This document shows, piece by piece, positions 2,845-44,592 of a stretch of 64,000 nucleotides of DNA (the stretch's first letter is position 1; each line of letters opens with the position of its first letter). This stretch comes from Isoetes taiwanensis (lineage: Eukaryota; Streptophyta; Lycopodiopsida; Isoetales; Isoetaceae): the NCBI GenBank assembly GCA_021234155.1, contig JAJEKV010000014.1, positions 8,759,563 to 8,823,562 on the forward strand, in the 5' to 3' direction. The notes beneath the pieces were generated by a model. That model ran no database searches. It had not been told where the DNA came from and saw nothing but the letters and a program-made list of their open reading frames with translations. Position numbers and translations under genes: made by a program.

Positions 2845-4479
2845 TGTGACGTTCTAGGGGAATATACGCTATAAATACATATATTCCTGGACCCGTCACC
2901 ATACAAGTCTACCTATGTAGCCTTGTATGCCTTAGAAAGTGGCAAGGGGTGCACATCTAAGTTAAGTGTTTAACTTAGATAACCTTAGGATAAGGCTCAT
3001 TTCCACATGGCCTTATCCTATTGGGCAACCGCCACACGGCCTCATCCTAGTGGTGCCACGTGGCATCCCATGTGGACCCACACCTATATTGGCTCTAACC
3101 CTAACCCTAGACCCTTTTCCCTGAACCTAGCACCTGAACTCTCATCTCGTGCGAAACCCGTTTGAGTATGGATTCGTCATAGCCTAGCGGAAAAAGCAGC
3201 CCACGGAAGGTGTGTATGATCGTGGGGAGCAAGCCCCGACCCACGGCAAGGAGCATGGAGGACGGGGGATGGGAGGAAGCTTACGGAGGAGGTATGTAGA
3301 GTAGTGCTCTTGGTAGTTCATCTGGAATTAGCATTCCAGATGAGTTAGTATCATGTATCTAGGGTAGAGCCATCCTAGAACCCTCATGCATCATCTTGAA
3401 CCCTAATCAAGGAACCCTAACTGTTAGTTAGATATGTATGATTAGGTTAAGATGTTCATATGATATTGATCATGATGTGATGTATGTGATGCTTGGTTGA
3501 TCATGTTGCTCCTCTTGTATTGGGAAGGGGGGGTAGAGACCTAGGGCCATATGTAGTATGCTCCTAGTGTAGATCCCTTAGTTCCTATTATATGCGGCCT
3601 GTGCATAGGAAGGAACCCACCGGGTTATGGAAGCTATGATGTGACTCAGCACTACACAACGGGGCTAGAGGCAAGATGGAGGGAGGATCCCTGCCGAGTG
3701 GGGGCTACGGGGGATCCCATAGTGGGCTAGGCTTATGGTGGGGTCGCCGTGTGGGCCGAGCATGGGTCCGACACCTCCTGGGGCGATGGTGTCGCCCTGC
3801 CTCTCAAGAGTTGCAAGTGTCGGCTTGGCTCTTGTTTAGGGGGTCGGTCGAGAGTGCAATGGGTGTGTCGCCCACGATTCTCTAGCCGCCCGTGGAGCCT
3901 CTAGAACCCGGGAAGGGGAGATGCAACCCTTCCTACCTCGACGGACCAGGGAGATGCAACCTGGAGTAGTCCCGATGGGTGATGCCATGGGATTGCGTGT
4001 CCGAAAGGTTAGAGTCATGTCAGAGCCTGATCTAGCCTATCTGCAAAGTATGCACAGGAGGGGCGGATGGAGTGGTAAACCCTAGCCATTGTCTTATGCC
4101 AGCCCCGCCATTGTTATGACTCGGTCTGCTCTATCTTGAGGCCTATCTCGTCAGTCGACTACCTTATGTGTCGGAGCCACGGGTAGGAGCTCTCATGTTT
4201 TATGGCATACGATTATGTTCTTTGCATCTATGGATATGTGGTTGAGCTACCTTTCGAGTAGTATGTGGTGTTGTATTGCTAGTTACGGCGTAATTATAAA
4301 CTCCATTTGTTATAGGAGCCCATAGGGGAAGGCGGCGCCAAAGACACCGTGTCCCCCCCCGCACTAGGTCACCCTCGAGTGCGGGGGTAGACGAAGGGCC
4401 CGTGCGGTTGTTGAGCCGGACGGGGGATTTCCTGTCGAGTGTACGGCCGGGTGCCGTATATTTAGCAGGGAGCGTCACA
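2845..4479 (+). repeat. 5' LTR of the gypsy element
   Basis: Begins TGTGACGTTC and ends GCGTCACA, one base before the primer-binding site. It matches the 3' LTR along its whole length, with small indels. Small open frames inside (for example 3676-3885) recur as broken versions in the other LTRs and are not genes. Confidence 0.93.
2846..2899. promoter_or_regulatory. LTR-terminal hairpin with TATAAATA in its loop
   Basis: The first 54 bases of the LTR form an inverted repeat. The arm starting gtgacgtt and running into ggaatatac pairs with the arm ending cctggacccgtcac, and the loop contains ctataaata. The 3' LTR has the same hairpin in cleaner form (14052-14105). A TATA-like box this close to the U3 edge is unusual, so its promoter role is uncertain. 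Confidence 0.6.
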
Positions 4480-4480
4480 A

Positions 4481-4492
4481 TGGTATCAGAGC
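4481..4492 (+). other. Primer-binding site for initiator tRNA-Met
   Basis: TGGTATCAGAGC, the standard plant LTR-retrotransposon primer site, lies one base after the 5' LTR end. It fixes the element's orientation as plus. Confidence 0.93.
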
Positions 4493-5058
4493 CAAGTTCT
4501 TGGTTGACCAGGAACTAGCACTGACCATAACCATGAAAGTAGCCTAACAGGCCTATAGGGGTGCGAAATAAAAATTTTCCACCATCGAACCTCGAAAATA
4601 GGGAAAAAAAAAATTCCTAGGTAGTGGGTCCGAAAATAGGTTAAGTGTTAGACGAAGAAATGAATGAGTCAAATTCACCTTCTAGTAAAACTGAAGTGAA
4701 AATTATGCATCTGCATCAAATTTCACCTAAAATGGGTCGAAGAATCATGCCAATCTGAGACCTGAGTGAAAAATGGCGCAAATCCATAATTAATACTTCA
4801 AACTATTAGGAAATTTGAAAGTTTTAAGGTATAATACGAAATTAAGTATGGATACCAATAATTAAATATGTACTAATAATTAGGGTACATTGGTGTAATT
4901 AATAAGGGGGGCTAATAAGTAGGCCTATTTATGGTAGGAAAATATTCCCAGGGACCCTCCTTTTTAAATATCTTGCCACCTCATTTTCCCTCCAACCTTT
5001 CTCTCCACCTTATCTCTCTTGATCAGCCTTACGTCACCCATTTTCTAGACCGTTAAGT
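4493..5058 (+). other. Untranslated leader of the gypsy element
   Basis: AT-rich, no open frame of note. The last 60 bases are pyrimidine-rich (tctctccaccttatctctc) just ahead of the ATG at 5059. Confidence 0.6.
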
Positions 5059-6127
5059 ATGGCACGCACCAAGCAGACATCTAGGAAGTTTGGGGAGAGG
5101 CCTACACTCTCGATGGAGCACGTAGCAGCAGGTCGCCATGTCAAGAAGGTTCCGCCACACCTTCGACCAAAGCCGGGCGACGAGGCATTTTCCTCCAGTG
5201 ATGAGACCTTCCACATTTCCCAGGAGGAGTAGCGGTGTAGCAGCAGCCTTTCGTTCGGGCGGGCACTCCAGCGAACCGAGGAGTCTCGCCATTTGGACCC
5301 TCGTCGACCTGGAGGTGGAGCGGCAAGATGAAGAGGGGAGGAGAACCAAGCGGCCGCAAGCACTGCACCCAAAGAGGCGGGCCCTTCGTCAACAAAGAAA
5401 AAAAGGGCAAGAATAAGGTGGCGATGGCGGGAGGAAGCGGTGGCAAGAAGAAAGGGGAGAGGAGGCTTCGAGAAGGGCGGGCGAAGAGAAAACGAAAGGC
5501 CTCGCGGGGGTATCGTGATTGAAACCTCACCCGTAGGCGGATGAGGGAGGAAGAGGCGGAAGGAGGCGGTGATGATGAGAAGAGGAGGAAGTCGTTGGGG
5601 AGGAGTGCTTTGGAGCCCCGGCGCCGCCCTAGAAGTGGCCCAAGCCATAGAAGGTGGTCAGGCGAGAAGGTGGGGGCATTGGCGCTCGCGTGAGGACCGC
5701 CCGAGAATTCAGGTGAGGCCTACGGGGAGTACCTTAGGTGGTTGGGCGAGTCTGATAGCTGGCTGTGTCGGCCGAGCGTGGGCGTTATGCGGCGAAGAAC
5801 CGGTAACCGCCACCTCCCGCGTCCACGAAGAAGAAGGTCCATCCGCGGACCCTGCTCATGATGCGCCCGTGTTTCGGGAATTAAGCACTTCGGCGGTGCA
5901 CCAATCTCCTGATCGGAAACTCCTTTTGGCTGATAGGGAAGTTATCACGAGGAGTTAGTCAAACTATGAATTTGACATCATGGCGGTTTCAGGTCCTGCC
6001 CGGTGGCGTACGTAGGAGAGTGATACAACTTTTGAGAACTAACTTATCATAATACACGCCAAAGAGGGTGGCCGTAATGCCCAAGGACATCCATTTGGCG
6101 AGGAGGATCTGCAAGGAGTACCCTTGA
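5059..6127 (+). pseudogene. Histone H3-like reading frame carried by the retrotransposon, frameshifted
   Basis: The ATG at 5059 opens with MARTKQTSRKF; histone H3 begins ARTKQTARKS. The frame stays open for 57 codons to TAG 5230. At the far end, in overlapping frames, come CTNLLI (H3 STELLI, plant CENH3 QTNLLI), then DREVI (H3 VREIA), IIIHAK (H3 CAIHAK) and KRVAVMPKDIHLARRI (H3 KRVTIMPKDIQLARRI), with TGA at 6125-6127. That is the H3 histone fold through its C-terminal helix. Between the pieces lie about 600 bases of Lys/Arg/Ser/Pro-rich sequence (for example STKKKRARIR), so the tail is far longer than H3's 44 residues and more like an extended variant tail. The frame is the first one after the primer site, inside the LTRs. 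An inserted histone pseudogene is the alternative. No intact version is present in this window. Confidence 0.72.
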
Positions 6128-6856
6128 ACCTCCTAATTTTGTAACTGTAATTAAAATTTTGGTGTAAATTGACTATCCTTTATTAATATATAACTCCTTC
6201 GTCTTGTAAAATTAATGTAGAAAGGTAGTTAGATAAGTCAAATTGTACTAAAATTTTTTGTATCTAACTTGTAATAATTCAATTATTCCACCCCTAATTA
6301 GAAAAATTAACTTTGAACAAAAGCTGGCCCTGGAAGGGTCGCGCCAAACCCCTTCAAGCGTTTTGGAACACCCTTTGTATGAACCCTTACGATTTGGCCT
6401 CACGGGCGTCCATTTTGCTTTCGAGGAAAAGTTGCATGCTAAGCTAGAATTGTGCAATTAGTCATGTTAGGATCTTTCAAACCTTAAAAATTCGTCAAAT
6501 TTGTTTCAAAATGGCGAAGCTTAGGAAGGGGTCCGCGCCAAACCCCTTCAAAGCGTTTTGGGGCAGCCCCTTCGCTTGTGAACCCTTCCGATTTGGCCCT
6601 TTTTGGTCTAATTTGACCAATTTTGACCTAACAACCTGCCATGTAGTGTTTCTTGCCTTGCTTTGCTTAGATTTGCACTTCATGGTAGCTCATTTGGATA
6701 CCCGTAAGCCTAGAACGAAAGTCTCCCCCATCAAGAACCCTTGTGCACGGAACCCGAGGCAGACCCTAGTTTATAAGAGGGGGCCTCATTTGTCATTTTC
6801 CCTACAACAAAAGTACTCTTAGCACCCTAGGCGATTTTCTATCTCCCCATTGATCT
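6128..6856 (+). other. Spacer of the gypsy element with an imperfect direct repeat
   Basis: AT-rich sequence (6130-6310) is followed by two related blocks of about 100 bp, near 6325-6430 and 6520-6620. Each contains gcgccaaaccccttcaa, then a gcgttttgg core, a caccc/agcccctt block, gaacccttacg or gaacccttccg, and gatttggcc. No supportable gene. The ORFs on either strand here are shadows of the repeat. Confidence 0.6.
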
Positions 6857-7315
6857 TTGCAAGCCATTTTCTACACCCATCCCTGCTTCATGGCGCCCTC
6901 TAACTTCGTTCGATGGTATGATGCTGCCAATCATATCCGTGATCTTCCTGCTGACCAAGTCTTCCATGTCTTCGACCACCTCTTTGATCTTCATGCAACA
7001 TTGACCAGAACTCCCTTCTACACTGATATCATCTGCTAATATGACCAGCAGATCCTACCCTGGGAAGTTAGCTTGCTACCTAAGGGAGGGAAATGGGTAT
7101 CCCTAGACTCCCTTAGCCAAGCTTTAGGAGGGGGATCCAAAAACAAGCTGTGGGATAGGACTAGACATATGCTTGACTATATGACTTGCAAGCATAATAG
7201 GCATAGGTACCTCTCAGCTCCGGCAGCCTTAGCTTTGTTCATGCAGTATAAGTCAATCAACAAGGCAGGTGAGCCCTCAATTCAACCCTTAGATCTAGCA
7301 CCTCTCGACACTTGA
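6857..7315 (+). pseudogene. Unrecognised ORF between H3-like frame and gag, one in-frame stop
   Basis: A continuous frame of 152 codons is broken only by TAA at 7037-7039. An internal Met starts MAPSNFVRWYDAANHI. After the stop come YDQQILPWEVSLLPKGGKW, VSLDSLSQALGGGSKNKLW and RYLSAPAALALFMQYKS. The composition is that of a folded protein, with aromatic and leucine-rich helices. I recognise no family. It lies inside the LTRs, downstream of the H3-like frame and well upstream of gag, so it is a candidate accessory protein of the element. The following 7316-8407 may continue it in broken frames. Confidence 0.5.
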
Positions 7316-8407
7316 GAGGAGCGGTCGGCATCCATGAGATCGACTCTCTGAGTCATGCAGTACTATGGGCGACCTCGGGGAACACCCATGCTGCGGATCG
7401 GAGCAAGATTACGGCGACAGGGGAGGAAGGAACCCAAGTGGGGGAGATGAGAGAGGCAACAAGGATGGAGGCGAATAGCTAGGCGGGGAAGGCACACTAA
7501 AGGCGAGATTTTGAACCGCCGGTTGGCATCCGCGACCCTGTCACCCGGTGATCATCGGCGGCGAGAGGTACATCTTGGCTGCGACATCATCAACCTTCCC
7601 CATTGCCAGAAGAAGGTCACCGAGAATCGATGAGCTCCTAGGCTTAATTGCACAAGAAGCGGGGCAGCGATTTCATCGACTACTCCTACCGGGGAAATCC
7701 CAAAGGGAAGTAAGCGGGCGACACTCCCTCTGCCGGGGAGACAATGTCGGATATACAAGCTTATCGGTGAGATAAAGGCGGATGTATCAACAACGGGAGC
7801 CCATCATCGAAGGAGGAGTTCTAGCGGATACAAAGCGGTGTATAAGCGGGAAGAGGTCAAGCTCTAGCCGACCGGTCCATTCGGGGAGTTCGCGTGAGTC
7901 ACGCTCCAACATCAACTTGGAGAACGCTACCACAATGTGGAGGGACCACGAAGACCTCATAGCAATTGACATCTACGGGGAAGCGGTGGCGAGAAGAGCC
8001 GCGAGGGTCCAACATGGCGGGGAAAGGTAAAGGCGGCCGATACTATCTTCGGCTCTTAGCCAAGGGCGGATGATAGTATTCCACAAGGAGTTTAGCCCAA
8101 GAGGGAAAGTGCATCGCGCTCCTCATAGCCCTCTCGGGCTTTGGGCAAGCGCCCGGACTAGACTACGGTTGGATCATGTCATCCTTTTAAGAGATCCGTA
8201 GCTCTTTCTTTGCATCGACCGCCCGGGGGCCACCTCAGGGATGCACATTTGTCAGTAGTGGCGGCAACGGCACACGAACTCCCAGCACCCCAGATGGCAA
8301 GAGCACTTGAAGGAGGATCAGCCGCAAGGATCTTGCACAACGTCGGCAAAGGGCTACATCTCAAGAACATCAAGAACTTCTTCAAGAACATGAAGGGCCA
8401 TCGATGA
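7316..8407 (+). other. Broken coding-like stretch downstream of the unknown ORF
   Basis: GC-rich sequence with short overlapping frames (7548-7775, 7782-8030, 8210-8407), the last ending NIKNFFKNMKGHR. Many runs look garbled (gcgg, gggg, cggg), as in the CHG-damaged parts elsewhere, so one longer protein continuing from 6857 may have been fragmented. No recognisable domain. Confidence 0.35.
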
Positions 8408-8638
8408 TGGAAAAAGAAATTTGCTTTGTCTCATTTAAATTGTATTGAATAATCTCTCTTTTAGATATTATCATGTATTTCATGAAATGTATCTCTAAAT
8501 ATTAATGACTTATTATGATCTTAACTTGTAAGTGGAATTTTCACATGATTTCTTCTGTATCTAACAATAAATTAATTGTAAATGGATATGATTGAGATGT
8601 AACCCAAATAACAAGTATTGATGATTAACCCTTGCAGC
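8408..8638 (+). other. AT-rich intron-like spacer before gag
   Basis: A sharp fall in GC content ends in a strong splice-acceptor-like site, ttaacccttgcag (8626-8638), directly before gag coding sequence. A spliced gag-pol transcript skipping the upstream frames would use such a site. This is inference. Confidence 0.4.
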
Positions 8639-9720
8639 CAGGAACACCGGCTCAGGTTCCCAAGGCCAAGGCCGACATCACCAGTGGGTACCCAGAAACC
8701 TATTTGGACGTGATCAAGACGACAACAACGAGGAAATGACAGTGGAGTCAATCAATGCAAGGCTCGTCCAGATGAGGAATCAGATGCATCAGCTGATCCA
8801 CTGGGCCACCCCATTGATGAATGCCCAAGAATATGCACCTGCACCACCTCCACCTCCACCACTACCTCAGCAAGGCATCGAGGAAGGTCCACGGCCGGGA
8901 GGGTAAGACAATCGAGGAAATGTCGAGGCGAGAAAGAGGAAAAGGAGAGCGAGAAGAACACCAACACCACCTAGCTCCGGTTCATGGACGCCGGACGGCC
9001 AAACGGTTCTAGCTTCGAGAGAGTGAGTCCGATACTTCTCGGTAAGAGCGACCCGGGGGCAAGGAAAGGGGCGACTATCGGAAAGAAAGTCGGCGGTGCT
9101 ATGAGCAATGTGTGGAAGACTAGGAAGTTGGGTGGGATTCTCGAGGAAGGACGGAGGTCAGGTATAGGCGAAGCACGGCAGCGAAATGGAAGAGTTTGGC
9201 AATTCTTATGGCATGAAGGACAAGGATATAGGGAAGGTTGCTACTGCAAACTTGATAGGAACATCTAGAATCTGGTGGAAAGGCTACGCCAAAGTCCAAC
9301 AAGCTCAAAAGAGCGATTCTTTGTGGCGGAAAGTAGGGATAAAGCCATAAGTTTGGAAGAAGCTCCACCGCGGGGAGAGAAACGTCGGCCTTCAAAGGGA
9401 AGTCAGCGAGGGCGTACCAAGGGCAATACGAGTAAGCAATCACAACTCGCCATCGGGGAGGCCAGCAGCAAGGAAGAGCTCAGGGTAAGAACTTTGGGGA
9501 TCGTAAGCCGCAGAATGCATCAGGGGGTAGTGCCCTAAAGCGTCTTTTAGACAGTCTGACGAAAGAGAAGAGACAAGAGTGTATCGAGAAGAAGCTATGT
9601 TTCAGGTGCTTCCAGCCAGGGCACCGAACACATGATTGCCCATTCGTCATGCGGCGACTTTGGCGAGCTTGGGGATTGGGATTCCACTTGAAGCGAGATG
9701 AAGACGACGACCAGCATGAG
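8639..9720 (+). pseudogene. Gypsy Gag with CCHC zinc knuckle, frameshifted
   Basis: Gag forms the virus-like particle and binds element RNA. Visible parts in order: an N-terminal segment ESINARLVQMRNQMHQLIHW and a proline run (8730-8890), an arginine-rich stretch (8905-8970), a capsid-like piece KVATANLIGTSRIWWKGY (about 9235-9290), and the zinc knuckle CFRCFQPGHRTHDC (about 9600-9640; C-X2-C-X4-H-X4-C). In-frame stops and frame changes separate the parts. The protease follows directly, as in gypsy polyproteins. Confidence 0.72.
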
Positions 9721-10320
9721 GCCTAGGACTTCATAGATGGTGAGTGCCATATCTGTGCAAATATTGAGTCAGGTGATATTGAAAATCAGTCGACAGTCAT
9801 TGCGGACGATGGAATCATATATAGCAACCCATATGTAGTCGTCATAGACACAGGTAGCTCTCACAACTTTGCCTCTCCTAGGCTGGCCGCCCTAATGAAG
9901 AATAAAGTTTTGAAGTCTAAGCCAAGGCCAGTTGCTATGGCAAACGGCGCCATTCGGCACACTAAGGGGAGGAGGATCACATTCGACATAGACCTTAGTG
10001 GAAGTAAGTGGTCGATGGGGGCAGAGGTCATGGAAATTGGAAGATATGACCTTATAGTAGGAATGGGTTCCTAAACCCGGGAAAGCCATGATCATTGCGG
10101 CCCAGTAATGAGATCGCCATGACAAGACGGGGACGGTACCAAATTCATAGTGAAAGGTAAGAAGGCGACTTCTTCTATGCGGTGTATTTCTTTAAGCGAC
10201 TAAGGAAAAGTATAGAAAGAAATAAGGTGGATTACATTTTGAGGTTAGAGGCAATTGAGCCCAATAAGCGGGGATGGAAGTGACCAAAGGGGAATCGGTT
10301 GCCCAAGCCGGTAGCAAGGC
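9721..10320 (+). pseudogene. Gypsy retropepsin-type protease, degraded
   Basis: An aspartic protease motif VVVIDTGSSHNF (about 9835-9870) is followed by ASPRLAALMKN and MANGAIRHTKG, matching the retropepsin fold of gypsy polyproteins that cleaves Gag-Pol. The catalytic Asp-Thr-Gly is intact. The second half and the linker to RT contain frameshifts. Confidence 0.7.
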
Positions 10321-11680
10321 TCATTTCAGAATTCAAGGATGTATTCCCGGATGAAATCCGGCAACTACCACCTTATAGGGGTGTGGAGTGTGAGATCACA
10401 CTAGCTCCGGATGCTAAGCCTACCAGCAAGGCGCCTTATAGGATGAGCACCCCGGGTTGATTGAGCTCAAGCGGCTCGAGGAATTGCTTGAGCTTGGGTT
10501 TATTAGAGCAAGTGTGTCTCCTTTTGGAGCACCTATACTCTTCGTGAAGAAGAAAGATGGGAGCTTAAGAATGTGCATAGACTATCGCCCGACTCAACAA
10601 GCGGAGGCGATAAAGAATAAGTATGCATTGCCAGGGGGTGACGATTTAATGGACCAGCTCCAAGGAGCAAAGGTGTTCTCTAAGATTGATTTGAGGTGGG
10701 GCTACCATCAAATAAGAATAAAAAGAAGAGGATATCCATAAGACCCGCCTTTAGAATGCGGTATGGTCACTTTGAGTTCTGATAATGCCCTTTGGGTTGT
10801 CGAATGCTCCAGCAACCTTCATCGCCTCATGAGCGGCGTCTTGGGGAATTCCTAGATGAGTTTGTCATCGTCTTCTTGACGACATTCTAGTCTGACAAGT
10901 CCATTGAAGAGCATAGTCGACATTTGAGAAGGGTGTTGGAAAAGTTGAGGTGGCATCGCTTGTATGGAAAGCTCTCCAAATGCCACTTTGCTACTTAGAA
11001 AGAGTGGAGTACTTGGGCCATGTCATATCGGCGGAAGGGATCTCCACCGAGCCATAAAGATTGAAGCGATGTAGTGGATTGGCGGCACCAAAGAATGTGG
11101 CGGAGGTAAGAAGCTTTCTAGATGCGGCAAGTTATTACTGAGGGAAATCGTGAAAGACTTAGCTAAGTGGAAGTCCCCTTGCCGGACCTCACTAAGAGTG
11201 TTAAGGTGAAAGATTGGAGAACACATTGGCTAGAAAATGTTCAAGCTTCATTTGAAAAGCTTAAGGAAGCCTTAACATCAGCACCGGTGCTGGATTACGC
11301 GAGATCGGACAAGGACAAGATAGTAGCAACTGGCCTTAAGCAAGATAGCAGCTTGGTGGAGTCCTTATGCAAGAAGGAAGAGTAGTGGCCTATGATTCCA
11401 AGAAGTTGAACCACACAAGGCGCTATCAACCCACGATCGGGGAACTTCTAGCTATTGTAAGAGCTCTTAGGTATTTGGAGGCATTATTTGCTTGGGAGGA
11501 AGTTTGGGTTAATCGCGATCACGAGCCTCCAATACATCTTTACCCAACCACTCCTCAATCTAAGGCAAAGGAGGTGGATGGAATTCCTAGAAGAGTATGA
11601 TTTTGAGATTGCTTACAAGCCGGGTAAATTGAATGTGATTTTTGATGCTCTTTCTAGAAGACCATTTGAGACAAGAGCGC
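10321..11680 (+). pseudogene. Gypsy reverse transcriptase and RNase H, frameshifted
   Basis: Gypsy RT lies in pieces: the entry segment FKDVFPDEIRQLPPYRGVEC (about 10330-10390), [20 protein letters not shown] then CIDYR and [13 protein letters not shown] (10457-10741), and a catalytic block with DD near 10880 out of frame. RNase H follows with VVAYDSKKLNHTRRYQPTIG (about 11385) and YDFEIAYKPGKLNVIFDALS (about 11595-11660). The pieces make and degrade the cDNA/RNA hybrid in family members. At least five frame changes are needed to read through. Confidence 0.8.
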
Positions 11681-13160
11681 ATTGTAATCACGATTTCCAC
11701 TCTTTCAGTGAGTTTGATAAGAAGATCGAGGAGACCACGCAATCAGGATGGAGATTTCAAGGAGGTATGGGAAAAGTCTCTCTCGGGGATGCTAGAAGCA
11801 GAGATAAAGAGCGAGAAGCCTTCAAGCATTATAAGAAGGAAGGCAACTTGTTATACCATAAGGACAAATTGTGTGTGCCCGAATCAAGTAGGGTATAAGG
11901 AAGCTAATTCTTCATGACACACACAAATGACCCAAAAGTAGGGCATGCGAGGGGTTCATGAAGACCTACTTCAAGATTTGGATAGCTACTTCGGCGGGGA
12001 ATGAAGAAGCACATAGCGGTATATTCGGGAATGCCGGTTGTGCCCGTGATGGAAAGCGGAGCAACCGAATTCAGGGTGCCCTAAAGCCTTTGGGAGTGCC
12101 AAATGCTAAGTGGGGAGGTCATAAGTATGGATTTTATCACATGACTCCTAGAACTCTTGAGGCAAGGATGCATTGATGTTTGTCGTAGACAAGTTGTCTA
12201 AGATAGCACATTTTGTGCCTTGCAAGACTTCTGGACACACGCATTAGATCTTGCCAAGCTATTTGTGAAGGAGATGTTTAGGCTCCATGGCATGCCTCGG
12301 GGAGATAATTTGAACGGGGACTCCAAGTTTATGAGTGCTTTTGGCGGGACCTCTTTAGCACCATTAGAACGAAGCTCTCCATGAGCACTGACTTATCATC
12401 CATGAGACGGATGGTTAGATGGGCCGCGAATCGAATCCTTGAAGACATGCTTAGAAGCTTTGTGTGGAATAAGCGGTCCAAGTGGGATGAGTACATCCAC
12501 TTGGTGGAATTCGCCTACAATAGTGCTGGCGAGGAGTCATCTCGGATGTCTCCTTTCATGGTAAATTCTGAGATACGATTGCCTAACCCGGGATACTTGG
12601 CACAATCATGTGTCAAAGGTTGAAGTATCAGCGGATGCTAGGAGATATGCGGCCGGTGGTGGAAGAAATGAGGGGTACCTCCTAGCGACAAGAAGTGTGA
12701 GAAGAGTGTAGCCAACAGCACGGGACCAGTAAAAGAGAGTTCAAGGTGGCGATAGCGTGTGGTTGAAGATCAAGGTCAAGCAAGCTAAGCAGGTTGGGAG
12801 TTGCAAGAATCTTGCCCCTAGGTGGGCTGGTCCGTTCAAGATTTTTGGAGAGTGGGCTCCCAAGCCTACAAGTTGGATCTTAGGCCCATCTCAAGGTTCA
12901 CAAAGGTTTTTCCACGTAAGTTTATTAAAAGGCACAATCCTAACCACGACAAGGTCTTAGATACTCCAACTTTGTTGGAAATGGCCAGGAGGCGGTGGAA
13001 ATTGTGCACGAGTTACTTCTTGATAAGTCATTCAAGAAGATTAGGAGGCCCAGTTCCTCGAGTATTTGGTCAAGTGGAAACACTTGCCCGTGGAAAACGC
13101 AACTTGGGTATTGAAGGGGATTTGGAGAAACAATACCGAATTTATGAAGGAGTTTGATGA
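11681..13160 (+). pseudogene. Gypsy integrase with degraded chromodomain-like C-terminus
   Basis: Pieces of a gypsy integrase: VDKLSKIAHFVPCKT (about 12183), a DSKF-type block near 12320, the helix segment KWDEYIHLVEFAYNSA (about 12480-12530), RMSPFMV, and the post-core APRWAGPFKIFGEW (about 12810-12850). At about 12990-13150, in several frames, there is a chromodomain-like string (VKWK-like, then LEKQYRI). Chromodomains direct integration to H3K9-methylated chromatin in chromoviruses. The ~19.6-kb duplicated segment starts inside this region, at about 11850. Confidence 0.72.
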
Positions 13161-14035
13161 TGGTGGTCGTCTCGGGCTTGGTGACCCGACTTCGCCGGGG
13201 AGGTTAGCAAGTATGTTTTCTAGTTAGCCTTAAGTTACGGCTCATGTCTTCTAGTTGGTAGAGCACATGTGCGGAATCTTAGATGGGCTATGTATGTGAT
13301 GATGGGATATGCCTTTAAGGCATTCTCTAAACCAACATGCACCAAGAGTGCGCATGACCAATAGGGTCATGCGAGAGAAAGAAGAAAGGCATGGTCTTGG
13401 TGATGATGGGACATCGGTTGGGATGCTCCTATGCCACGATGTGGGGTTCGCACACCTGGCCATAGGGGTCATGGTGAAGGTCAAAGTGATCATCTTGCGA
13501 TGATGGGATCGTGAGGCGTTCCCTAGCTTAAAACCCTTGGGGCATGATGCACTAGGAATTTTCGGCACCAGGTAATAGCAAGTACAAAGGTAGCACTTGA
13601 TCATGGGCGATGATGGGATCATTTTAAATGGTCCTTAAGCTCAAATCCGAAAGGGCCATGATCGAGTGCAAGGTATTGGTAAGGGGGGTGGTCCCCTAAA
13701 ACCACAAACTTACTAATTAAACTAACGTAATGTGCTCCTTGTGCAGGCAAGTGAGAAGCGAGCATCGAGGTGGGGCGCATTACGAGAAGACGGGGGAGCC
13801 ATAATTTAGATTATGAACCCTAATAACTCTTATAGTAATGTTTTGAATTATGTTAAGAAGGAACCTTGTTAAGGCTATATAATTTTGTATAAGTACAAAT
13901 ATAGCCTAAATTTTGGCATCTAACTCTTTAATAGGAAGTTGATCGTTTAAATTAAAATTAAGTATACGTTCTTATCATTGTTTGCAGGTTAGAGTAGGCT
14001 CGTCACCTTGGCGCAATGTTGAGGACAGCATTGTC
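13161..14035 (+). other. 3' untranslated region of the gypsy element with spaced GATGATGGGA repeats
   Basis: No coding frame. The decamer gatgatggga occurs near 13299, 13402, 13500 and 13608, about 100 bp apart, each within a longer diverged repeat (tatgcc, acatcg, tcgtga, tcattt follow). An AT-rich tract with a ttgtttgcag acceptor-like site ends at about 13988. Confidence 0.6.
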
Positions 14036-14050
14036 CTAAGGGGGGGAGAA
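14036..14050 (+). other. Polypurine tract of the gypsy element
   Basis: A run aagggggggagaa lies directly before the TG of the 3' LTR, where plus-strand DNA synthesis is primed. Confidence 0.9.
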
Positions 14051-15677
14051 TGTGACGTTCCAGGGGAATATACGCTATAAATACGTATATTCCTGGACCC
14101 GTCACCATACAAGTCTACCTATGTAGCCTTGTATGCCTTAGAAAGTGGCAAGACATCTAAGTTAAGTGTTTAACTTAGATAACCTTAGGATAAGGCCCAT
14201 TTCCACATGGCCTTATCCTGTTGAACAACCGCCGGCCTCATCCTAGTGGTGCCACGTGGCATCCCATGTGGACCCACACCTATATTGGCTCTAACCCTAA
14301 CCTAGACCCTTTTCCACTGAACCTAGCTTTTGAACTCTCATCTCGTGCGAAACCCCATTTAGAGCATCGTTAATCATAACCTAGCACATAACAGCAGCCC
14401 ACGGAAGGTGTGTATGATCGTGGGGAGCAAATAACCGACCCGGACAGGAGCATGGAGACGCCAGGGATGGGAGGAAGCGCTTCTGGAGGAGGTATGTAGA
14501 GTAGTGCTCTTGGTAGTTCATCTGGAATTAGCATTCCAGATGAGTTAGTATCATGTATCTAGGGTAGAGCCATCCTAGAACCCTCATGCATCATCTTGAA
14601 CCCTAATCAAGGAACCCTAACTGTTAGTTAGATATGTATGATTAGGTTAAGATGTTCATATGATATTGATCATGATGTGATGTATGTGATGCTTGGTTGA
14701 TCTTGTTGCTCCTCTTGTATTGGGAAGGGGGGGTAGAGACCTAGGGCCATATGTAGTATGCTCCTAGTGTAGATCCCTTAGTTCCTATTATATCATTTTG
14801 TGCATAGGAACCCACCAGGGCTATGGGAAGCTATGATGTGACTCGGCACTACACAGCTTTGAGGGCTAGAGGCAAGATGGAGGGAGAATCCTGCCGAGTG
14901 GGGGCTACGAGGGGATCCCATAGTGGGCTAGGCTTATGGTTGGTCACCGTGTGTGGTAGGAGCATGGGTCCGACACCTCACAGGCGATGGTGTCATGCCA
15001 CGCCTCTCAAGAGTTGCAAGTGTCGACTTGGCTCTTGTTTTGGGGGTCGGTCGGGTGCGAATCGTGTGTCGCCCACGATTCTCTAGCGCTTGAGTGGAGC
15101 CTCTAGACCCCGGGAAGGGAGATGCAACCCTTCCTACCTCGGCCGGACCCGGGGAGATGCAACACGGGTAGTCAGATGGGTGATGCCATGGGATTGCATG
15201 TCAGGAAGGTTAGACTCATGTCAGAGCCTGATCTAGCCTATCTGCAAAGTATGCACAGGAGTGAAGTGGTCAACCCTAGCCATTGTCTTATGCCAGCCCC
15301 GCCATTGTTATGACTCGGTCTGCTCTATCTTGAGGCCTATCACGTCAGTCAACTACCTTATGTGTCGGAGCCACGAGTAGGAGCTCTCATGTTTTATGGC
15401 ATACGATTATGTTCTTTGCATCTATGGATATGTGGTTGAGCTACCCTTCGAGGTAGTATGTGGTGTTGTATTGCTAGTTCTGACGTAATTATCGCCCAAA
15501 ACGTTATAGGAGCCCATAGGGGAAAGGCGGCATAAGACACCTTGTCCCCTCCCGCACTAGGTCACGAGAGTGCGGGGTAGGCGAAAGAGACTTTGTCGCG
15601 GTTGTTGAGTCGGACCGGGGGATTTCTGTCCAGGGTTAATGCGGCCGGGGCCGTATATTTATTTGAGGAGCATCACA
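14051..15677 (+). repeat. 3' LTR of the gypsy element
   Basis: Begins TGTGACGTTCCAGG and ends GCATCACA, then the TAAAA target duplication (15678-15682). Same order of blocks as the 5' LTR, with indels concentrated in GC-rich, CAG/CTG-containing parts. The terminal hairpin at 14052-14105 is near perfect. Confidence 0.93.
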
Positions 15678-15682
15678 TAAAA

Positions 15683-16439
15683 AAGCACCTAAGACGCCGT
15701 ATTCAATAACTCATGCAGCGGCTGGTCAGTCAAAACTAACCAAACATACCACGCTCGGATATGGGCAAACGCTGGGCAGATCTGGAGGGCAATGCCATTA
15801 ATCTTCAATGGCGCCCTAATACCTCTCATAATACGTGATGTAATACATTTAGCTGTTATTATACATGCTTCATTTCTTTGAACATTTAAGTTTAAGTTTA
15901 ATATAGTCCACTATAGAACCTGCAGAAAGAAGAAGAGCAAACTGACTTAGCATATTCTCTAGAGTGCTGAAACTTGCAAGATACTTTAAGAATAAAAAGA
16001 ATTTAGAATTGTTTTTGCCTTATTTTAGTCAATGGATATATTATGTGCCTATTACATACCTTAAGTAACATCTTCAATGTCATCTTCGTCATGAACATCT
16101 ATCCCAATTGAATTTATACCTGCATACTAAAACAAGATAATTTATACAATTAGAAGGGGACTCTGGTGGCAACACTGACAAAGCCTATACTCTCGTGCTT
16201 CCCGAGTCTAACGCCCTGTCTCAATGCGAAGACGATGTGCACCCGTGTGAATGGAAGCTACAAGTCTGCATTTCTTCATGGGCAAATGGGTGCACAAGTA
16301 CTGATGTGGGCCTCTCGTGAACATAGGATTGACTTCCTGCTGATAGTGTGCCATCTTAACGTGCGTCAGAGCCTCTGCATCCTAGGGCTTGCGAAGGAAA
16401 CTAGCATCTAGGTACAGCTTTAGTGCATTGCAAAGGGAA
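15683..16439. other. Flank of the gypsy insertion with a small exon-like piece on the minus strand
   Basis: No long reading frame. On the minus strand 16119-16060 is a 60-base piece bounded by gttttagtatgcag and AAG|gtatgt. It encodes the acidic SIGIDVHDEDDIEDVT followed by TAA, like a terminal exon. It is kept in both duplicated copies. A second GC-rich block (16152-16410) shows no domain and differs between copies by indels. Confidence 0.3.
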
Positions 16440-17703
16440 GTTATAAGATTTCTAAAAAACTAGTAACCAAATTGGTTTACAAATCAATAAATGTTGCTGA
16501 GATTTTTGAGAATGCAAAGACGGTCTTGAAGGAATTCATTCCACACAACTATAAGGGGAGGTGGCAGGCCAAACAATTCAGAGAATGTTTGGCAACATTT
16601 CCAAAGGATTCAGTTGTTTCAGTGATCGATTTTGCTGAGAATTATACTTTTAAAATCCAACAAGAAATCCGAAGTCTTCAATGGAGGAATGATCAGTGTA
16701 CAATTTTGGTACACATTACATATAGACATGCAACAAGAGTAAATGATCCTCACTTAGAAGAGAGTGAAAGGAAAATTATTAAAGAGACTCATTTCTATAT
16801 CTCGGATGATAAGGATCATGATACCTTATTTGTGCAACATTGCTTGCTCAAACATACACATTTTTTAGCAAACAGAGGTGTCAAGCACAAGCAACATGTT
16901 ATGTGATCTGATGGATGCTCTCATCAGTCTAAAGGTGCAAGGCTATTTTATTTCCTTGGTAGGTACTACCAAAACTCCAGCATTCCAATAAATTGAAATT
17001 ACTTTGCTTCACACCATGGCAAAGGTATTCTAAAAGGTTCTGGTTTTTTTTCCTTTTATAATTATTGACCAATATATGATGTACTGCTATTTCTTGAGAC
17101 TGGTGAACAATGATGGTATTGGAACTGTCATTAAGAGGCACTAACTCATGAAATGTTTAAGAGGAATTCAACGCTATTGAGAAATGCATATGATTAGTTA
17201 TTTTTTGTACAAGACATTTCAAAGAACATAATTGAAGAAAAGGACAGATATAGGTACTCTCTCAAAACCATTGTTAGCAATTGATAGATTGTTTGACTTA
17301 AAATTGATCCATGTTTGTGAAGTTGCAGATTTTTTGGGAAATTGGAATTGATGAAGTTGACAGGAGTGAGAGGTATGATTGTGCAACTCTAGTTGGATCA
17401 AGTCATTTCCATGCTATCAGACCTATGCAAAGTTCAGATCCTACTCAAGTAGCAGGCATGAATTATTCTTGTTTCTGTCATAATTATTGGCTTGGTAAAT
17501 ATGGCAAGTGTCCAAACAAGGAGAGAATAGACTCATGAACTTTTTCTGAACTAAAACTAGGTGCTGAATATAAAGATGAAGCTGTTGATTGTCCTGTGTA
17601 TGAGGGAGATCCTGAATGGAAGTCTGATATTATTGCAATTGGAGATAACTTTACAGTCAATGTTGAGCCTAACAACAAAGAAAAGAATATTTGTATATTC
17701 TGA
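16440..17703 (+). pseudogene. C-terminal piece of a transposase-like gene, copy A
   Basis: An open 144-codon frame (16472-16906) has KTVLKEFIPHNYKGRWQAKQ, VVSVIDFAENYTFKIQQEI and THFYISDDKDHDTLFVQHC. After TGA 16904 the frame continues SDGCSHQSKGARLFYFLGRY, so the usual Trp of a WSDGC motif is the stop. Later pieces are ASHHGKG (about 17010), FWEIGIDEVDRSERYDCATL (about 17330) and a tail to about 17703. Conserved Asp and His positions resemble a DDE-like catalytic core, but the family's mechanism is not established to my knowledge. It is the downstream half of the gene whose N-terminus lies at 1868-2235. Copy B is identical across the main frame. Confidence 0.6.
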
Positions 17704-17720
17704 AATGCACACAGATGTTG

Positions 17721-18342
17721 TTTTTTTTTTTTAAAGGACTTGAGCCTTTATTATCCAGAGGACTAAAAACTTAGTGGAGAGAATGTCCACCAGAGCAAAA
17801 CCACCCCACTCAAATACAACATCTAAACAATATGAAGAGCAAGCAAAAACTCATAAGTAAGTATGAATCTGAAGATAGTGCTCCCAAATACGGCTCTTCA
17901 CCTCATTAGCAATTGATGAGCACCTGAATGCTTTGACAATTCGTTGTTGGGCATCAAGAAGGATCTGTGCATCTAAACAAGCAAGACCTTTGAATATGAA
18001 AAGATTCCTTCTTTTCCAAATGGACCAAATGATCCATGCAGAAGCCAAATGAGATGCCCTTTTTGCCAAATTATCCCAACTACTTGGATAGACTGCTAAT
18101 AACACCTGCTGGCTATTCAAATTGCAATGAAAGAGGCCTTGAAGCCACAACCAAGCATGTCTGACATGTCTACACAGGAAGAAGCAATGCTCAATTGTCT
18201 CGTCCCTCTGTGCACATAAGGGACAAAGTGCAGATACCTCTGGATGAAATCTGTGCACCACTTACACACACCATCCATACGATGTACGTGAATTATCGCC
18301 CTTGGCTTAGGATTTTCAAGTTCCTGAGGTACAAAGGGCGTG
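17721..18342 (-). pseudogene. 5'-truncated LINE fragment with zf-RVT domain, copy A
   Basis: Read on the minus strand it carries the zinc-binding domain found after reverse transcriptase in plant LINEs: LCPLCAQRDETIEHCFFLC (C-X2-C, then H-X4-C). This is followed by LNSQQVLLAVYP, WIIWSIWKRRNLFIFKG and a tail, with stop at 17851. A run of twelve T (17721-17732) is its poly(A) tail on the minus strand. The upstream coding part (about 18262-18342) is in another frame. No RT catalytic part remains. Confidence 0.75.
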
Positions 18343-18703
18343 TAGGGTTTTATGATCCGCACATTCAAAAAGTCAATAAACATCAAAGAAACATGAAAGC
18401 CCTTGAAAAAAAACACATGCACATGTACTATATTGACGTCAGAACATTAGTCGCGAACATAACACTTACCTCCATCACAAACCATCCGTGTAAACCACGT
18501 TCCTTGTGAACCTTGAAATTGTTAGGGTTTCCACGATCGCATATTCAAAAAGGTCAATAAGCGTCAAAAAAACATGAAAATCCTTGAAAAAAACACATGC
18601 ACATGTATTATATTGGTGTCGAACATTAATTAGCGGACATGACACTTACCTCCATCACAAAGCATCCATGTAAACCCGTTCCTTGTGAACCTTGAAATTG
18701 TAT
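18343..18703. repeat. Two tandem 181-bp repeat units, copy A
   Basis: The unit starting taggg(t)ttt and containing cacatgcacatgta, acttacctccatcaca and ccttgtgaaccttgaaattg occurs at 18343-18523 and again at 18524-18703. The ORFs across it are by-products. Confidence 0.85.
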
Positions 18704-18799
18704 TGGCGCCTTCTTGAGGCATGGAATGAATTAGATCTTTAATAACAACCCAAAATCCTTATCAATTTTGCACCTTTGAGAATGCTATATATATAGCAT

Positions 18800-19006
18800 T
18801 GTTAGCAAATGACACATGTCATGTGTCACTATTCATAGATGACTAGGCATGCCACCTAGATGTTGCTGACATGGCTCTCCTATAAAGCCATAGTCACGCT
18901 TTATTGTTATTCATTCAGAATTCACTCACTAGACTAGCTAGATTGTCTATCTCATTCTATCCTTGCATAGTCGTCTTCATCCTATTCATGTCCAGTCATA
19001 TCTTCA
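18800..19006 (+). repeat. Copia 5' LTR with palindrome and TATA box, copy A
   Basis: 207 bp. It contains the inverted repeat tgacacatgtcatgtgtca (18810-18828) close to the U3 edge, and ctcctataaagcc with TATAAAG at 18881-18887, a likely promoter. The 3' partner is 24233-24421. Confidence 0.88.
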
Positions 19007-19020
19007 TGGTATCAGAGCTT
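19007..19020 (+). other. Copia primer-binding site, copy A
   Basis: tggtatcagagctt immediately after the LTR, complementary to the initiator tRNA-Met 3' end. In copy B (38629) it reads tggtaccagagc. Confidence 0.9.
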
Positions 19021-19357
19021 AATGCAAGGAGGAAATTGAGTGCCGAATCTTAGCAGGTGGGACCAGAACGAGTTTTTTTTTTTTCCGTGTCTGATTAGGA
19101 GGAATTCGAATCGATTCAAATTCGAATTTGAATCATTGGTTGAAATCAAATTTCATCAACTTTTAGGGCTGGATGTGATACATGTCAGCCAGAATACTCC
19201 TTACCTTGCCGGATTCTCTCTTTTTTTGACGTTTGGTCAAAACTACGTGAAGAATACCCGATGATAATTCTTTGATAATCCTTTCTCCCTCAATCCGTGC
19301 TTCCTTCTTGGCTCTGTTCAATTTGAACTATTTGGATCTGCATTCTTTTCATCATAA

Positions 19358-22300
19358 ATGGCTACAAATGCCAATCCTTAGAAATACTTTATTCACCCTG
19401 TATTAGATATTGACAATTATTTCACATGGCGAGATGCCTTTGAAACCAATCTTAATTTGAGAGGTTTGAGAGTTGTTTTTCAACCCAAATGGAACCCTAC
19501 TTCACCTGATGATTTTGAAAATGATTTCATGGCTTTGAATAATCTCAAAGCATGTATTTATCCAGATTTTCAGAGAGATATTCGAGGGTATATAACTTTT
19601 ACCCAACATTTGATTTTCTGCATAAGAATTGCATTCAGGCAGGTGAACGCCAACAACTTGGTATTCAAAGCCAAATGGATAATCTCAGGTTAGAAACTTG
19701 CACTAATATGCGAGATTATCTGCAACAATTGAAAGCATTGAAGGAAAAATTGCTTGCTGCAGGAGGTACTCTATCAGATTTGTCTCTCATCCAGTATGCT
19801 CTCAAAGGTCTGCCTCGTGAATATCAAAGTGTCTTTGATTATTACAAGCTCCAAGATAAGATCACTATCTCTTTCAATCAACTTCAGCTCAAACTTGTAG
19901 ATGGTGAGGGTATGATCAAATGGAAGCTAGTTTCTATTCTAGAACTAGGCTTTCTTCACCTCCTGTTACTCCTTTAGTTGTTACATCTGGATCTACTTCT
20001 TCTTCCCCTTCCTATGAGTCCGTTGAGGAAGCTAAATCAGGCTCCAAATCTGGATCTGAGCAACCATTCACTTGCTTTTACTGTGGTAAAAAGGGCCACG
20101 CTAAGCGTGATTGCAGGAAGCTTCTAAAAGATATGGCCGAATTTCTAAAACACAAGGAGGCCAAACCAAAAGCTGCAGATTCAACCCTTTCGAGTGCAGT
20201 AAATGCTCATGTTTCCCATTTGATTTGGAGGTGGCAGAATTATAGTTCCTCAATGTCACTGCAGATAATCTACGGCCACATACTTGGCTTGTGGATTCTG
20301 GGGCCACCAAGCATTTGGTAGGCCAATCGAATGATTTCCAAACTCTTCATTCATATGATAAAACAATGGTAAAAATGGCCAATGGAAATATTGCTAAATC
20401 TACTGCAAAAGGTGATGTATCTATTTCTATCAAACACTGTCTTTCTCTCAAAATTAAAGATGTCATTCTAGTGCCTGGATTACTTGTGGACTTACTTAGT
20501 GTAAGTGATTTTTTTTTGAAAGATGGGCTATTCATTGCTATTCTCGGATGGCTATGTTCACATTCTTCATAAAAATCCTTTGGATTTTGTTGATCTTCAA
20601 CTTTTGGGCCCTATAGCTAATGGTCATTTAAATGAGGAAGGCTTGGATATTTTGGATTCTACTTCACGACAAAAAGAAGTATCATGTGAATCATCACTTG
20701 CCGTTCTTTCTTTGTTCAATAATACGAGGAATCATTATGGCATGCAAGATTGGACATATTCATCTTCCATCTCTATTTTTAGCCTCAAAATTGAATATGG
20801 TTCAAGGCATGCCTACACTTATTACCAAGGACTTGAAATGTCTTTGCTGCGTAGTCTTGGAAAAAGTACAAGCATCTTATCCATCACAAAGCTGAGTTTG
20901 AGCCCAACAATCGTTGGAGCTGCTACATAGACATATGTCATCTCCCTCTCGAATCGGGTACGGTAGCGGGTATTTCCTTGTCGTAGTGGATGATTTTTAG
21001 TAGATATACATTGGTTTTCAATCAAATTCAAGTGTCAAGCTCTTGCTATCTTCAAAATCTTTAGACACCAAAATTGAAAATGAATTATCTACTACTATAA
21101 AAGCTATCCGGTGCGATAATGCGAAGGAATATATCTCTAATGAATTTCAAACCTATCTTGGTCAAAAGGGATCCATAGACAGTTGATTGTGCCTTATGTT
21201 CCTCTCAAAATGGAGTAGCGAGAACAAAAGAATAGAACCCTTATGAATTTGGCTCACAACATTCTCAAATATAAAGAGTTACCTCGAACTTTGGGGAGGC
21301 GGGTTCTAACTCTGGCTTATTATTTGTATATGAGGGCTCCCACCGAGGGACATCAACTTTAAGACACCTTTTGAGGCTGTATGGAATGAAGCTAGATGAG
21401 TCTAATCTAAGGGTTTTGGCTGCCTAAGATTTGCTAGTGTTCCTCTCAATTCTTTGCAAAAATAAGGCAGGTTATTTGTGAGGGCCATAAAAGTGATTTT
21501 GTTTGGATATCCTAGCAACATGAAGATGGCGATGCTTTGATCTTGTTACCAAGAGTGTGTTTTGCCTCTAGAAGCATGCACTTTCTTGAGGATGCAGTCT
21601 ACTCTAAGGAGTTTTATCATCTAACAACACTTGATTATGCCAAAGCTTAGTTCATTGTCGGGGAACAAGCTTGTAGCTATTTCATCAATTCATGCGGGGT
21701 CCCACAGTCACAGTTGGGGCAGGTGGGGGGGCGCAATTGCAGCGGCGAGACTATGTGCTGTTGCGATTCTGAGGTTATTGAAGATGAAAGCCATACTCTT
21801 ACGAGTTGCCACCTTTTGAGATAGTCAGGAATCATTTTTGACCTTAGCATTCCATTCCACGCTTCCACAACTTCTCAGAGCACCATATGTGCATGACTTG
21901 GCCTTATACGGTTCTAGATAAATATGCGCAATTCTGAGCCCTCGGTAGTCATTATCTCAGCTTGTCTAGTATCATCATTCTTGCAAAGGTTTTCCTTGAA
22001 AAAAACTTTCCCGGCGAGGTTTTTAATCCTAGTAGTAATGATTGTACTAGCCCCATTTATATGGGTCCCATGACCTATTGGTCTCTCGTGGGCGTTAAAA
22101 ATCTATTCTATTCTAGTCTATCATCAACACTTTTCATATTAACCATGACACTCAAGCTAGCCAACTGCGGGGTCTTCTCATATAGTTCATAATGGTGGCA
22201 TTTCCTCTCTTACATTGTATCTTCCATTGTTGCAAGCCCTTCATCATCCTGCTGCTACTCTAGTGTTGCAAGTTCTTCGGTACTCGACATTCCAAAGCAT

Positions 22301-24117
22301 TTGTTGCGACAAATGAAGCGGATGTGTGCGGATGCTTATGCGGACTATGAACCCCTTGAATATCACGAACCCATTTGCGGATGAAGATAGTGAAGGTATG
22401 AGTGCGATTCACATTCATTTGAGATGCCCATTCTGAACACTTGTGAGGATGCAATAGTTCTTGATCTTCCCTTGCTTAGAAGGTTTGCGAGAATTGCCGA
22501 GTTACAACCTATTGACTACTCAGAAGATGGCTCTTCTAAATTTACCTGTAACTATGCTCTTATGACCAAGGTCTTATCAGCTGAAGTTGATCCTGTTAAT
22601 CATGTTCAAGCAATGAAAGAACCACACTGGGTTGCAGAAATAAAAGATGAATTATCCATGTTACATAACCAAGATACATGGGAACTGGTTCCTAAACCAA
22701 CAGGAAAAAAATATAATTGGAGCTCAATGGGTATTCAAAACAAAGTACCATGCTGATGGTACTCTTTCTAAGCACAAAGCAAGGCTGTTGCAAAAGGGTT
22801 CAGCCAAAAAGAAGGGTTTGATTATCATGATGTGTTTGCTCCAATTGTTAAGTTAGACACACTTAAAGCAATGATAGATTTGGTAGCGCAAAAAGGCTGG
22901 CCTCTCTATCAAATGGATTTCAAATCCGCCTTTTTGAATGGGAATTTGAAAGAGGAACTTTACATGTTTCAACCACCAGGTTTTAAAGATAAAGAGCAGC
23001 CAACTTACGTGTGCAAATTGAAAAAGAGCATGTATGGCCTCAGACAAGCTCATTCTTTGGAATCGGAAAAATCAATGCATTTCTCTTCGTCTTGGATACG
23101 AGAGATCTAGAAGCGGACAGAGCCTTTATTTCATGTCCTTTGATTCTCAAGTTAGTGTGCTCTTTCTCTATCTTTGATGACATGATTATGACCCGAGGAA
23201 GATGCGATTCTATTATTTCTCATACTAAGAAAGCACTTATGGAAAACTTTGAGGTAACAGATTTGGGCCTAATGCATTATTGTTTGGGAATGGAAATTTG
23301 GCAAGGTGCTCAAAGCATTCACCTTATTCAGTAGAAGTACACCATTGAACTTCTTGAGAAGTTTCATATGGCAGATTGCAAAGTATCATCCACTCCGTTT
23401 GAAGTAGGTTGCACTATAACTCTAGACTCCAACCATCCGGATGTTGATGCCACTCTTTACAGACAGCTAATTAGGGCTTGGCTTTATCTTACCAACACTA
23501 GGCCAGATTTGATATATGCTGTTGCAGTCCTACTAGGTTTATGCATCATCCTAAAGTACCGCATTGGAAAGCAGCTAAACGAGTTTACCATTACCTCAAA
23601 GGTACTCAAAGTGAAGGAGTCCTATATATCAGAGTTGATCATCCTATTCTTATGTTGTTTTCAGATTCCGATATGGCATCTACAGATCTTGAGAAAAGAA
23701 AATGCATTACTGGATTCATTTCCTTTCTTGGAGGCAATCCTATTAGTGGGGATAGAAAAGCAAAAGACAAACAACATCCCGGTACTCTTGAGGCTAAACT
23801 CAAGGCCTTGGTTACAACAGTATAAGAGATGCATTGGTTGGTTCACTTATATGAAGATTTGGGCTGTCCACTCAAATCTGCAACCATTTATTGTGATAAC
23901 AGTGGAGTCATTGCTCACGCCAAAGACTACAAGATGCATCTGCTTATCAAGCATATGGCTATCAAACTATGGTTTGTCAAAGAGCAGTTCCAAAATGGAT
24001 ATCTCTCATTGTCTTACTGCTCTACCAAGCATCAAGTTGCCGATGGGTTTACAAAACCTCTTGGAGGACATCAATTCCGTCAGATGAAACAGCTCTTGCA
24101 TGTTCTGCCCCATGCTC
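19358..24117 (+). pseudogene. Copia Gag-Pol polyprotein, frameshifted, copy A
   Basis: Gag starts at MATNANP (19358; TAG follows where copy B has TGG). It includes NMRDYLQQLKALKEKLLA and the CCHC knuckle CFYCGKKGHAKRDC (about 20072). Protease: WLVDSGATKHLV (about 20283). GAG-pre-integrase and integrase run from about 20740 to 21450 with RCDNAKEY and broken neighbours. RT: VFAPIVKLDTLKAMIDLVAQ and YQMDFKSAFLNGNL (about 22830-22940). Here the catalytic YADD block reads as a broken FDD (about 23175), whereas copy B keeps LYADDMIM. RNase H: ATIYCDNSGVIAHAKDYKMH (about 23880). Many frame changes coincide with CAG/CTG sites where copy B differs. Confidence 0.85.
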
Positions 24118-24232
24118 ATTCTCAGGGGGATCATAGTGTTTTTTTTTTCTCTAAAGCTTCTCTCTCAGGAGGCCTTTTTGTTTGTTTTATGTTTTTGTTT
24201 TTTCAGTTCAGTCCTGCTAGTCATCGGGGGGG

Positions 24233-24421
24233 TGTTAACAAATGACACATGTCATGTGTCACTATTCATACCTAGGTGTTGCTGACATGGCTCTCCTATA
24301 AAGCCATAGTCACGCTTTATTATTGTTCATTTAGAGTTCACTCACTAGACTAGCTAGATCATCTATCTCATTCTATCCTTGCATGGTCTTCTTCATCCTA
24401 TACATATCCAGTCATATCTTA
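24233..24421 (+). repeat. Copia 3' LTR, copy A
   Basis: Starts TGTTAACAAATGACACATG after a ggggggg tract (24225-24232). It ends catatctta, where the 5' LTR has catatcttca. About 189 bp, with a short internal deletion relative to the 5' LTR. Confidence 0.85.
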
Positions 24422-25038: not shown

Positions 25039-25044
25039 GTAAGT

Positions 25045-35304: not shown

Positions 35305-35309
35305 TAAAA

Positions 35310-44586: not shown

Positions 44587-44592
44587 GTAAGT

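Follow-up and report, generated by a model that had tools for sequence, protein, structure and literature searches.

Chromoviruses of Isoetes taiwanensis carry a gene ending in a histone H3 fold between the primer-binding site and gag

Chromoviruses of Isoetes taiwanensis carry, between the primer-binding site (PBS) and gag, a gene (ORF1) for a protein of 370 to 459 amino acids with a histone H3 fold, some 94 residues long, at its C-terminal end. The fold lies at the same place in all three ORF1 types (A, B, and C) and is under strong purifying selection across element copies. Judging from the sequences, ORF1 is probably a captured host H3 that is expressed, pairs with H4, and enters nucleosomes as a chromatin handle of the element. 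The evidence for the ORF1 family comes from one genome, i.e., the assembly (1,658,258,908 bases in 1110 pieces) to which the window, the whole 64,000-nucleotide stretch of DNA analysed, belongs. The published I. taiwanensis assembly is described as 1658.30 Mb in 204 scaffolds plus 909 contigs, built from Nanopore reads with Racon, Pilon, and gap closing (PMC8566536); the word "histone" is absent from the main text of that genome paper.

In the window, positions 2845 to 15677 form one Ty3/gypsy chromovirus bounded by a target site duplication (TSD), with the H3-like gene inside it, between PBS and gag. The two 5-bp TSD copies (TAAAA, unstranded, positions 2840 to 2844 and 15678 to 15682) are identical and enclose a 5′ long terminal repeat (LTR; 2845 to 4479, TGTGACG...CGTCACA) and a 3′ LTR (14051 to 15677, TG..CA ends) with 89.2% identity to each other. 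All internal features, like the LTRs, are on the plus strand. The 5′ LTR is followed by TGGTATCAGAGCC (4481 to 4493), which we take to be a PBS of the initiator-Met-tRNA type, and the 3′ LTR is abutted by a polypurine tract region (14031 to 14050) ending in AAGGGGGGGAGAA. The 4.1 kb that separate the PBS from gag accommodate two genes, the frame-broken H3-like family A ORF1 (5059 to 6127) and ORF2 (see below). Then come, as in-order pieces, gag with a zinc knuckle (8625 to 9726; zf-CCHC below cut-off), aspartic protease (9727 to 10074; RVP_2, 21.5 bits versus a cut-off of 20.3), part of the reverse transcriptase (RT; 10442 to 10741; RVT_1, E = 6.7e-6, below cut-off), part of RNase H (11461 to 11898; RT_RNaseH, E = 5.5e-5, just under cut-off), and an integrase (12032 to 13144) ending in a chromodomain at about 12985 to 13144. 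Because the frames are broken, the protease is the only one of the gag, protease, RT, and RNase H pieces above its Pfam cut-off; the integrase was delimited by frameshift alignment to the other chromovirus of the window, and its chromodomain scores 29.9 bits against PF00385 (cut-off, 25.1) after read-through of the frame changes. LTR pair, TSD, PBS, polypurine tract, and a chromodomain ending the integrase are thus all present, and presumably the carriers are Tekay/Del-like elements. They resemble other Ty3/gypsy chromoviruses in their LTRs with TSD, initiator-Met-type PBS, and gag-protease-RT-RNase H-integrase-chromodomain order, and differ from them in the genes added before gag, the first of which has the H3 fold. 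The second chromovirus of the window (55587 to 57849, minus strand) has an open integrase-chromodomain frame, its RT/RNase H being 46 to 52% identical to those of the H3 elements, and at 58212 to 61495 a unit of ~765 bases forms a tandem array of 93 to 95% identical copies with what looks by eye like a copia-like frame.

The first-pass annotation had pointed to two H3 matches in the right order within this element, a tail start and the end of the fold, and both are real. MARTKQTSRK at 5059 scores 45 against H3 residues 1 to 10 (next best in the 64-kb window, 22; maximum in eight Markov windows, 27), and KRVAVMPKDIHLARRI at 6062 scores 66 against the last H3 helix (window runner-up, 23; Markov maximum, 30). 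A frameshift-tolerant alignment of positions 5875 to 6109 with the H3 core of Arabidopsis H3.1 scores 96, compared to a maximum of 54 in 200 shuffles, and only two of 822 window tiles from both strands exceed 42 in the H3 core scan, both at ORF1. The coordinates of ORF1 were confirmed (ATG at 5059 to 5061, stop at 6125 to 6127). The histone-core HMM check that had been suggested gave a divided answer for the window copy: the unedited piece 6062 to 6124 remains under the PF00125 cut-off (E = 0.0022, 18.7 bits), and the unedited tail piece 5059 to 5229 matched no Pfam family or PDB chain, while the fold (5875 to 6127) read with X at the frame changes reaches 36.8 bits (cut-off, 26.4) and has H3s from 1e-14 as the best 60 of its 173 PDB matches. 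These read-through figures are flattered because the frames were chosen to fit H3, which does not apply to the tile and shuffle scores; intact relatives, with one copy of each family scored and above the cut-off (see below), remove the remaining doubt and confirm the H3 match. No tile stands out in scans of the window for H4, H2A, H2A.Z, H2B, or H1 (the top H1 tile, 75, lies within gag and the second, 70, elsewhere), and a MAGKGKGG stretch near 8013 considered as another histone was dropped on these grounds.

In the window copy of ORF1, the tail MARTKQTSRKFGERPTLS... (5059 to 5229) is open up to a stop at 5230 to 5232, and the fold has 8 frame changes within 235 bases, a density not significantly different from that in the pol of the same element (31 in 1476 bases; P = 0.16). 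Many of these frameshifts may be assembly errors. The window contains a 20-kb tandem duplication (12067 to 31604 and 31788 to 51217) with frequent, mostly one-base indels and a very uneven identity per kilobase (88% to 99.7%), the duplicates being 97 to 99.7% identical in some parts and 88 to 94% identical, with many indels, over the element part at 12067 to 16000. The duplicated copies of the 3′ LTR are separated by a K of 0.19, compared to 0.117 for the older LTR pair of the element itself, so that age cannot explain the divergence, which has the appearance of erroneous bases in repeats or of an assembly artifact. The uneven identity and the LTR divergence are the reasons why we do not take the frameshifts to prove that the copy is old or the gene dead. 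Between 12067 to 13200 and its duplicate, the mismatches are strand-lopsided (62 A/G versus 15 C/T), perhaps owing to methylation-linked Nanopore error. A plant protein kinase gene (49113 to 50348 and 30221 to 30619) has long frames in one duplicate and shorter ones in the other.

Intact copies of the family A gene are found elsewhere in the genome. With the 57-residue tail as the query, 150 of 1335 first-look candidates were scored and all 150 matched (E ≤ 3e-18, 70 to 100% identity), the first being the window itself; an open frame of at least 350 amino acids was listed for 37 of them. The fold piece is open over at least 75 amino acids in six of the nine best other loci (L010 to L018) and not in the other three. 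All 14 loci with open frames of at least 400 amino acids were fetched, and 12 have the tail and the fold in one open frame of 370 to 381 amino acids, L043 and L046 being the two without. The encoded protein consists of an H3 tail (MARTKQTARK), about 275 mostly charged residues, and the C-terminal H3 fold, for which one intact copy scores 102 bits (PF00125 cut-off, 26.4). Long flanks were read for two loci. L054 shows intact ORF1, ORF2, gag, RT, and RNase H in the same order as the window, with identities of 82% at the ORF2 start (49 aa), 94% in gag (93 aa), and 84% in RT (92 aa); the exact PBS 11-mer TGGTATCAGAG was not found there. At L053 this 11-mer lies about 580 bases upstream of ORF1, a spacing as in the window, and no ORF2 or gag frame of 120 amino acids occurs within 6 kb after ORF1. 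An H3-like frame as a family trait, which the first-pass annotation had set against a one-off pseudogene insertion, is thus borne out, for the members examined, by the multiple copies with intact ORF1, and so is its description of an extended H3-like tail with K4/K9-like positions in a chromodomain element.

Two further families were recovered with the Pfam histone profile, for which 150 of 8705 candidates in the genome were scored, all above cut-off. The eight loci returned are ordinary 136-aa H3 genes; twenty others were fetched by position, and each has an open frame with the H3 pattern at its end. Fourteen family B and two family C loci from these twenty entered the fold comparisons, and L021, L025, L036, and L037, without the exact RPGTVALRE start, were left out. 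A complete B frame of 434 to 459 amino acids is present at seven loci, and at L032 the frame extends beyond the usual end. One intact copy of each scores 144 bits (B) and 142 bits (C) against the PF00125 cut-off of 26.4. B and C have a common N-terminal domain, different from that of A, and are 43% identical over the whole protein; likeness between A and B/C is confined to the fold (59 to 64%). The N-terminal domain of B/C (MPRFKLTIDLKK..., L020, positions 1995 to 2894) has no Pfam match and is under purifying selection, with a dN/dS of 0.17 in B. The PBS 11-mer is present at 14 of the 20 B/C loci, about 710 to 760 bases before ORF1 where measured. The family B element at L028 is bounded by LTRs (88 to 93% identical), and downstream of its ORF1 two long frames make up gag-pol, with capsid, protease, RT, RNase H, pieces of integrase, and a chromodomain (PF00385, 32.9 bits). 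A and B elements are 69% identical in RT and 84% in RNase H, which places them in one clade.

ORF2 (window 6890 to 8410, frame-broken, right end approximate; L054 from 3812; L024 from 4579 to 6027) is a second accessory gene before gag. It follows ORF1 at seven of the eight B/C loci listed frame by frame, L028 seemingly lacking it. No Pfam family matched ORF2 above cut-off, and that of the window had no homologue in the protein collection. A relationship between the ORF2s of A and B, which are alike by eye, was rejected as BLASTP gave no match at 1e-3.

Third-position changes dominate the nucleotide differences among family A folds (470, 165, and 2236 at codon positions 1, 2, and 3). The pN/pS of the fold is 0.077 in A (bootstrap, 0.051 to 0.107; 12 copies) and 0.068 in B (0.036 to 0.108; 7 intact copies), or 0.066 with all 14 B copies, compared to 1.71, 2.25, and 2.99, respectively, for a reading one base off. 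As dN/dS the fold values are 0.056 (A) and 0.040 (B). The rest of the protein is freer, with 0.186 in the tail and 0.129 in the linker of A and 0.170 in the N-terminal domain and 0.185 in the linker of B; for residues 1 to 10 of family A the value is 0.030. The sampled copies were picked for their open frames and the median fold dS (0.96 in A, 0.71 in B) is near 1, i.e., close to saturation, although we do not think that either is the source of such low ratios against the one-base-off control. Selection at 0.7 to 1 synonymous changes per site between copies points to use of the fold by the element, and together with the intact copies it indicates that ORF1 is a gene kept up by the element rather than a one-off pseudogene.

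As to the kind of H3, A is 55 to 56 of 92 residues identical to host H3 (two copies), B 78 to 81 of 94, and C 83 of 94, and A is 41 to 48 of 92 identical to two non-host CENH3s. In a fold tree of 32 rows that includes those two CENH3s, A forms one group (support, 100/100) and B another (99/95) with C beside it (91/71), and the two CENH3s group apart (99/98). The fold thus appears H3-like rather than CENH3-like, relative to these two CENH3s. TNLLI, from which kinship with CENH3 had been suspected, is indeed present, but that kinship is not supported; the MPKD of canonical H3, also pointed out earlier, is kept. C110, H113, K115, R116, D123, L126, R72, and R83, which we take to be H3-H3′ and DNA contact residues, are invariant (12/12 A, 14/14 B, 2/2 C). 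K56 and K79 are missing from A, where the 87 to 90 stretch is also altered, so that the use of chaperones may differ or be lost. The ARTKQTARK start is restricted to A, B and C beginning otherwise, and all 12 A copies keep K4 and K9, with F (11 copies) or Y (one) in place of S10. ORF1 thus shares the H3 fold with canonical H3 and plant CENH3, and in A also the H3 tail start, and differs from 136-aa canonical H3 in its length of 370 to 459 residues. For both A and B, AlphaFold gave poor models (mean pLDDT, 45 and 42), with a helix order that fits the histone fold.

We know of no earlier retrotransposon that keeps a core histone gene. A 248-aa family A query against 997 candidate proteins of 136 to 434 amino acids gave 248 matches, and query coverage does not exceed 58% in any of the 120 listed; eight were inspected and proved to be H3s of ordinary or variant type, with tandem H3s in the first two places. 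No family A member from outside I. taiwanensis was among the matches listed, in a collection that may omit near-window records. The window tail, ORF2 piece, and RT piece and the A and B proteins had no match in viral contigs, nor had pol in plasmids. No retroelement with a histone gene appeared among the matches listed in the open-access literature (titles and abstract openings); in their main texts, "histone" is absent from a review on how plant elements capture genes (PMC13317346) and "retrotranspos" from a review of viral histones (PMC9145170). The latter describes single viral histones, i.e., a bracovirus H4 and singlet H3s of giant viruses and a xenomavirus, which are like ORF1 in that a parasite genome holds one host-like core histone, the bracovirus H4 also having an extended tail (PMC9145170). 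Their carriers are DNA viruses or proviruses of these, however, whereas ORF1 sits in a plant LTR retrotransposon with its fold fused to long new N-terminal parts. According to the former review, host pieces captured by plant LTR elements, Bs1 of maize being an example of such capture, mostly decay (PMC13317346). ORF1 would likewise be host coding sequence inside an LTR element, but its entire open frame is present in many copies and subject to selection.

On the reading that we consider probable, a host H3 would have been captured long ago and given rise to ORF1, whose protein would be produced during the element life cycle. It would pair with host H4 by means of the conserved fold and the H3-H3′ contacts and would enter nucleosomes, either those on element DNA or those at target sites; there, the N-terminal addition (the H3 K4/K9-like tail in A) would be an element-controlled chromatin handle for staying active or steering integration. 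The chief rival is that the H3 fold was repurposed within the element and stays out of host chromatin altogether, serving to assemble particles, to pack RNA/cDNA, or to contact a protein. The long unrelated N-terminal parts of A and B/C, the position of ORF1 next to gag, and the limited identity of A to host H3 would all suit such a role, which we regard as possible though rather unlikely given that the presumed H3-H3′ and DNA contact residues are among the invariant ones and that the B and C folds are 78 to 83 of 94 identical to host H3. Another reading, in which the elements have spread H3-variant genes of the host or domesticated copies and selection acts for the plant, is improbable: some captured host genes in plant elements are under selection (PMC13317346), but the tail copies number at least 150, synonymous distances from copy to copy are near 1, and at the flank-read loci, e.g., L028 and L054, ORF1 has kept gag-pol frames beside it. 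Improbable, too, is an element-encoded CENH3 mimic that targets or takes over centromeres. REI[RK]HF and TNLLI, presumably motifs of Arabidopsis CENH3, and the long variable tail recall such a protein, but the compared A, B, and C folds are nearer to H3 than to the two non-host CENH3s, which stand apart in the tree, and MPKD is kept. That ORF1 is a passive single-copy pseudogene like many in plant elements is hardly credible, for although the copy in the window is interrupted by a stop at 5230 and by 8 frame changes within its fold, these changes are not significantly denser than those in its pol, and an intact multi-copy family under purifying selection refutes this reading.

If ORF1 does act as a captured, nucleosome-entering H3, the element might also write and read its own chromatin label, its integrase complex recognizing the ORF1 tail (A) or domain (B/C), which we put forward as a doubtful extension in which the reading of ORF1 by the integrase is guessed. 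As for the H3-reading integrase envisaged in the first-pass annotation, the intact L028 chromodomain keeps only one of the three cage aromatics, so methyl-lysine reading is doubtful. Should such a label exist, the element would choose its integration site or escape silencing with it.

Chromoviruses are known, as is the uptake of histones by DNA viruses; what is new is their union, with fused N-terminal domains. To our knowledge, this would be the first retrotransposon with a maintained core histone gene, in one family of which a single plant genome has at least 150 tail copies. Two outstanding problems, target finding by chromodomain elements and the resistance of elements to silencing, are linked here to one protein, ORF1, that is amenable to expression and testing. 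The divergence of an H3 fold within a parasite, across long evolutionary distances, also amounts to a natural series of H3 mutants. Overall, the data suggest that a mobile element can make its own piece of chromosome packaging.
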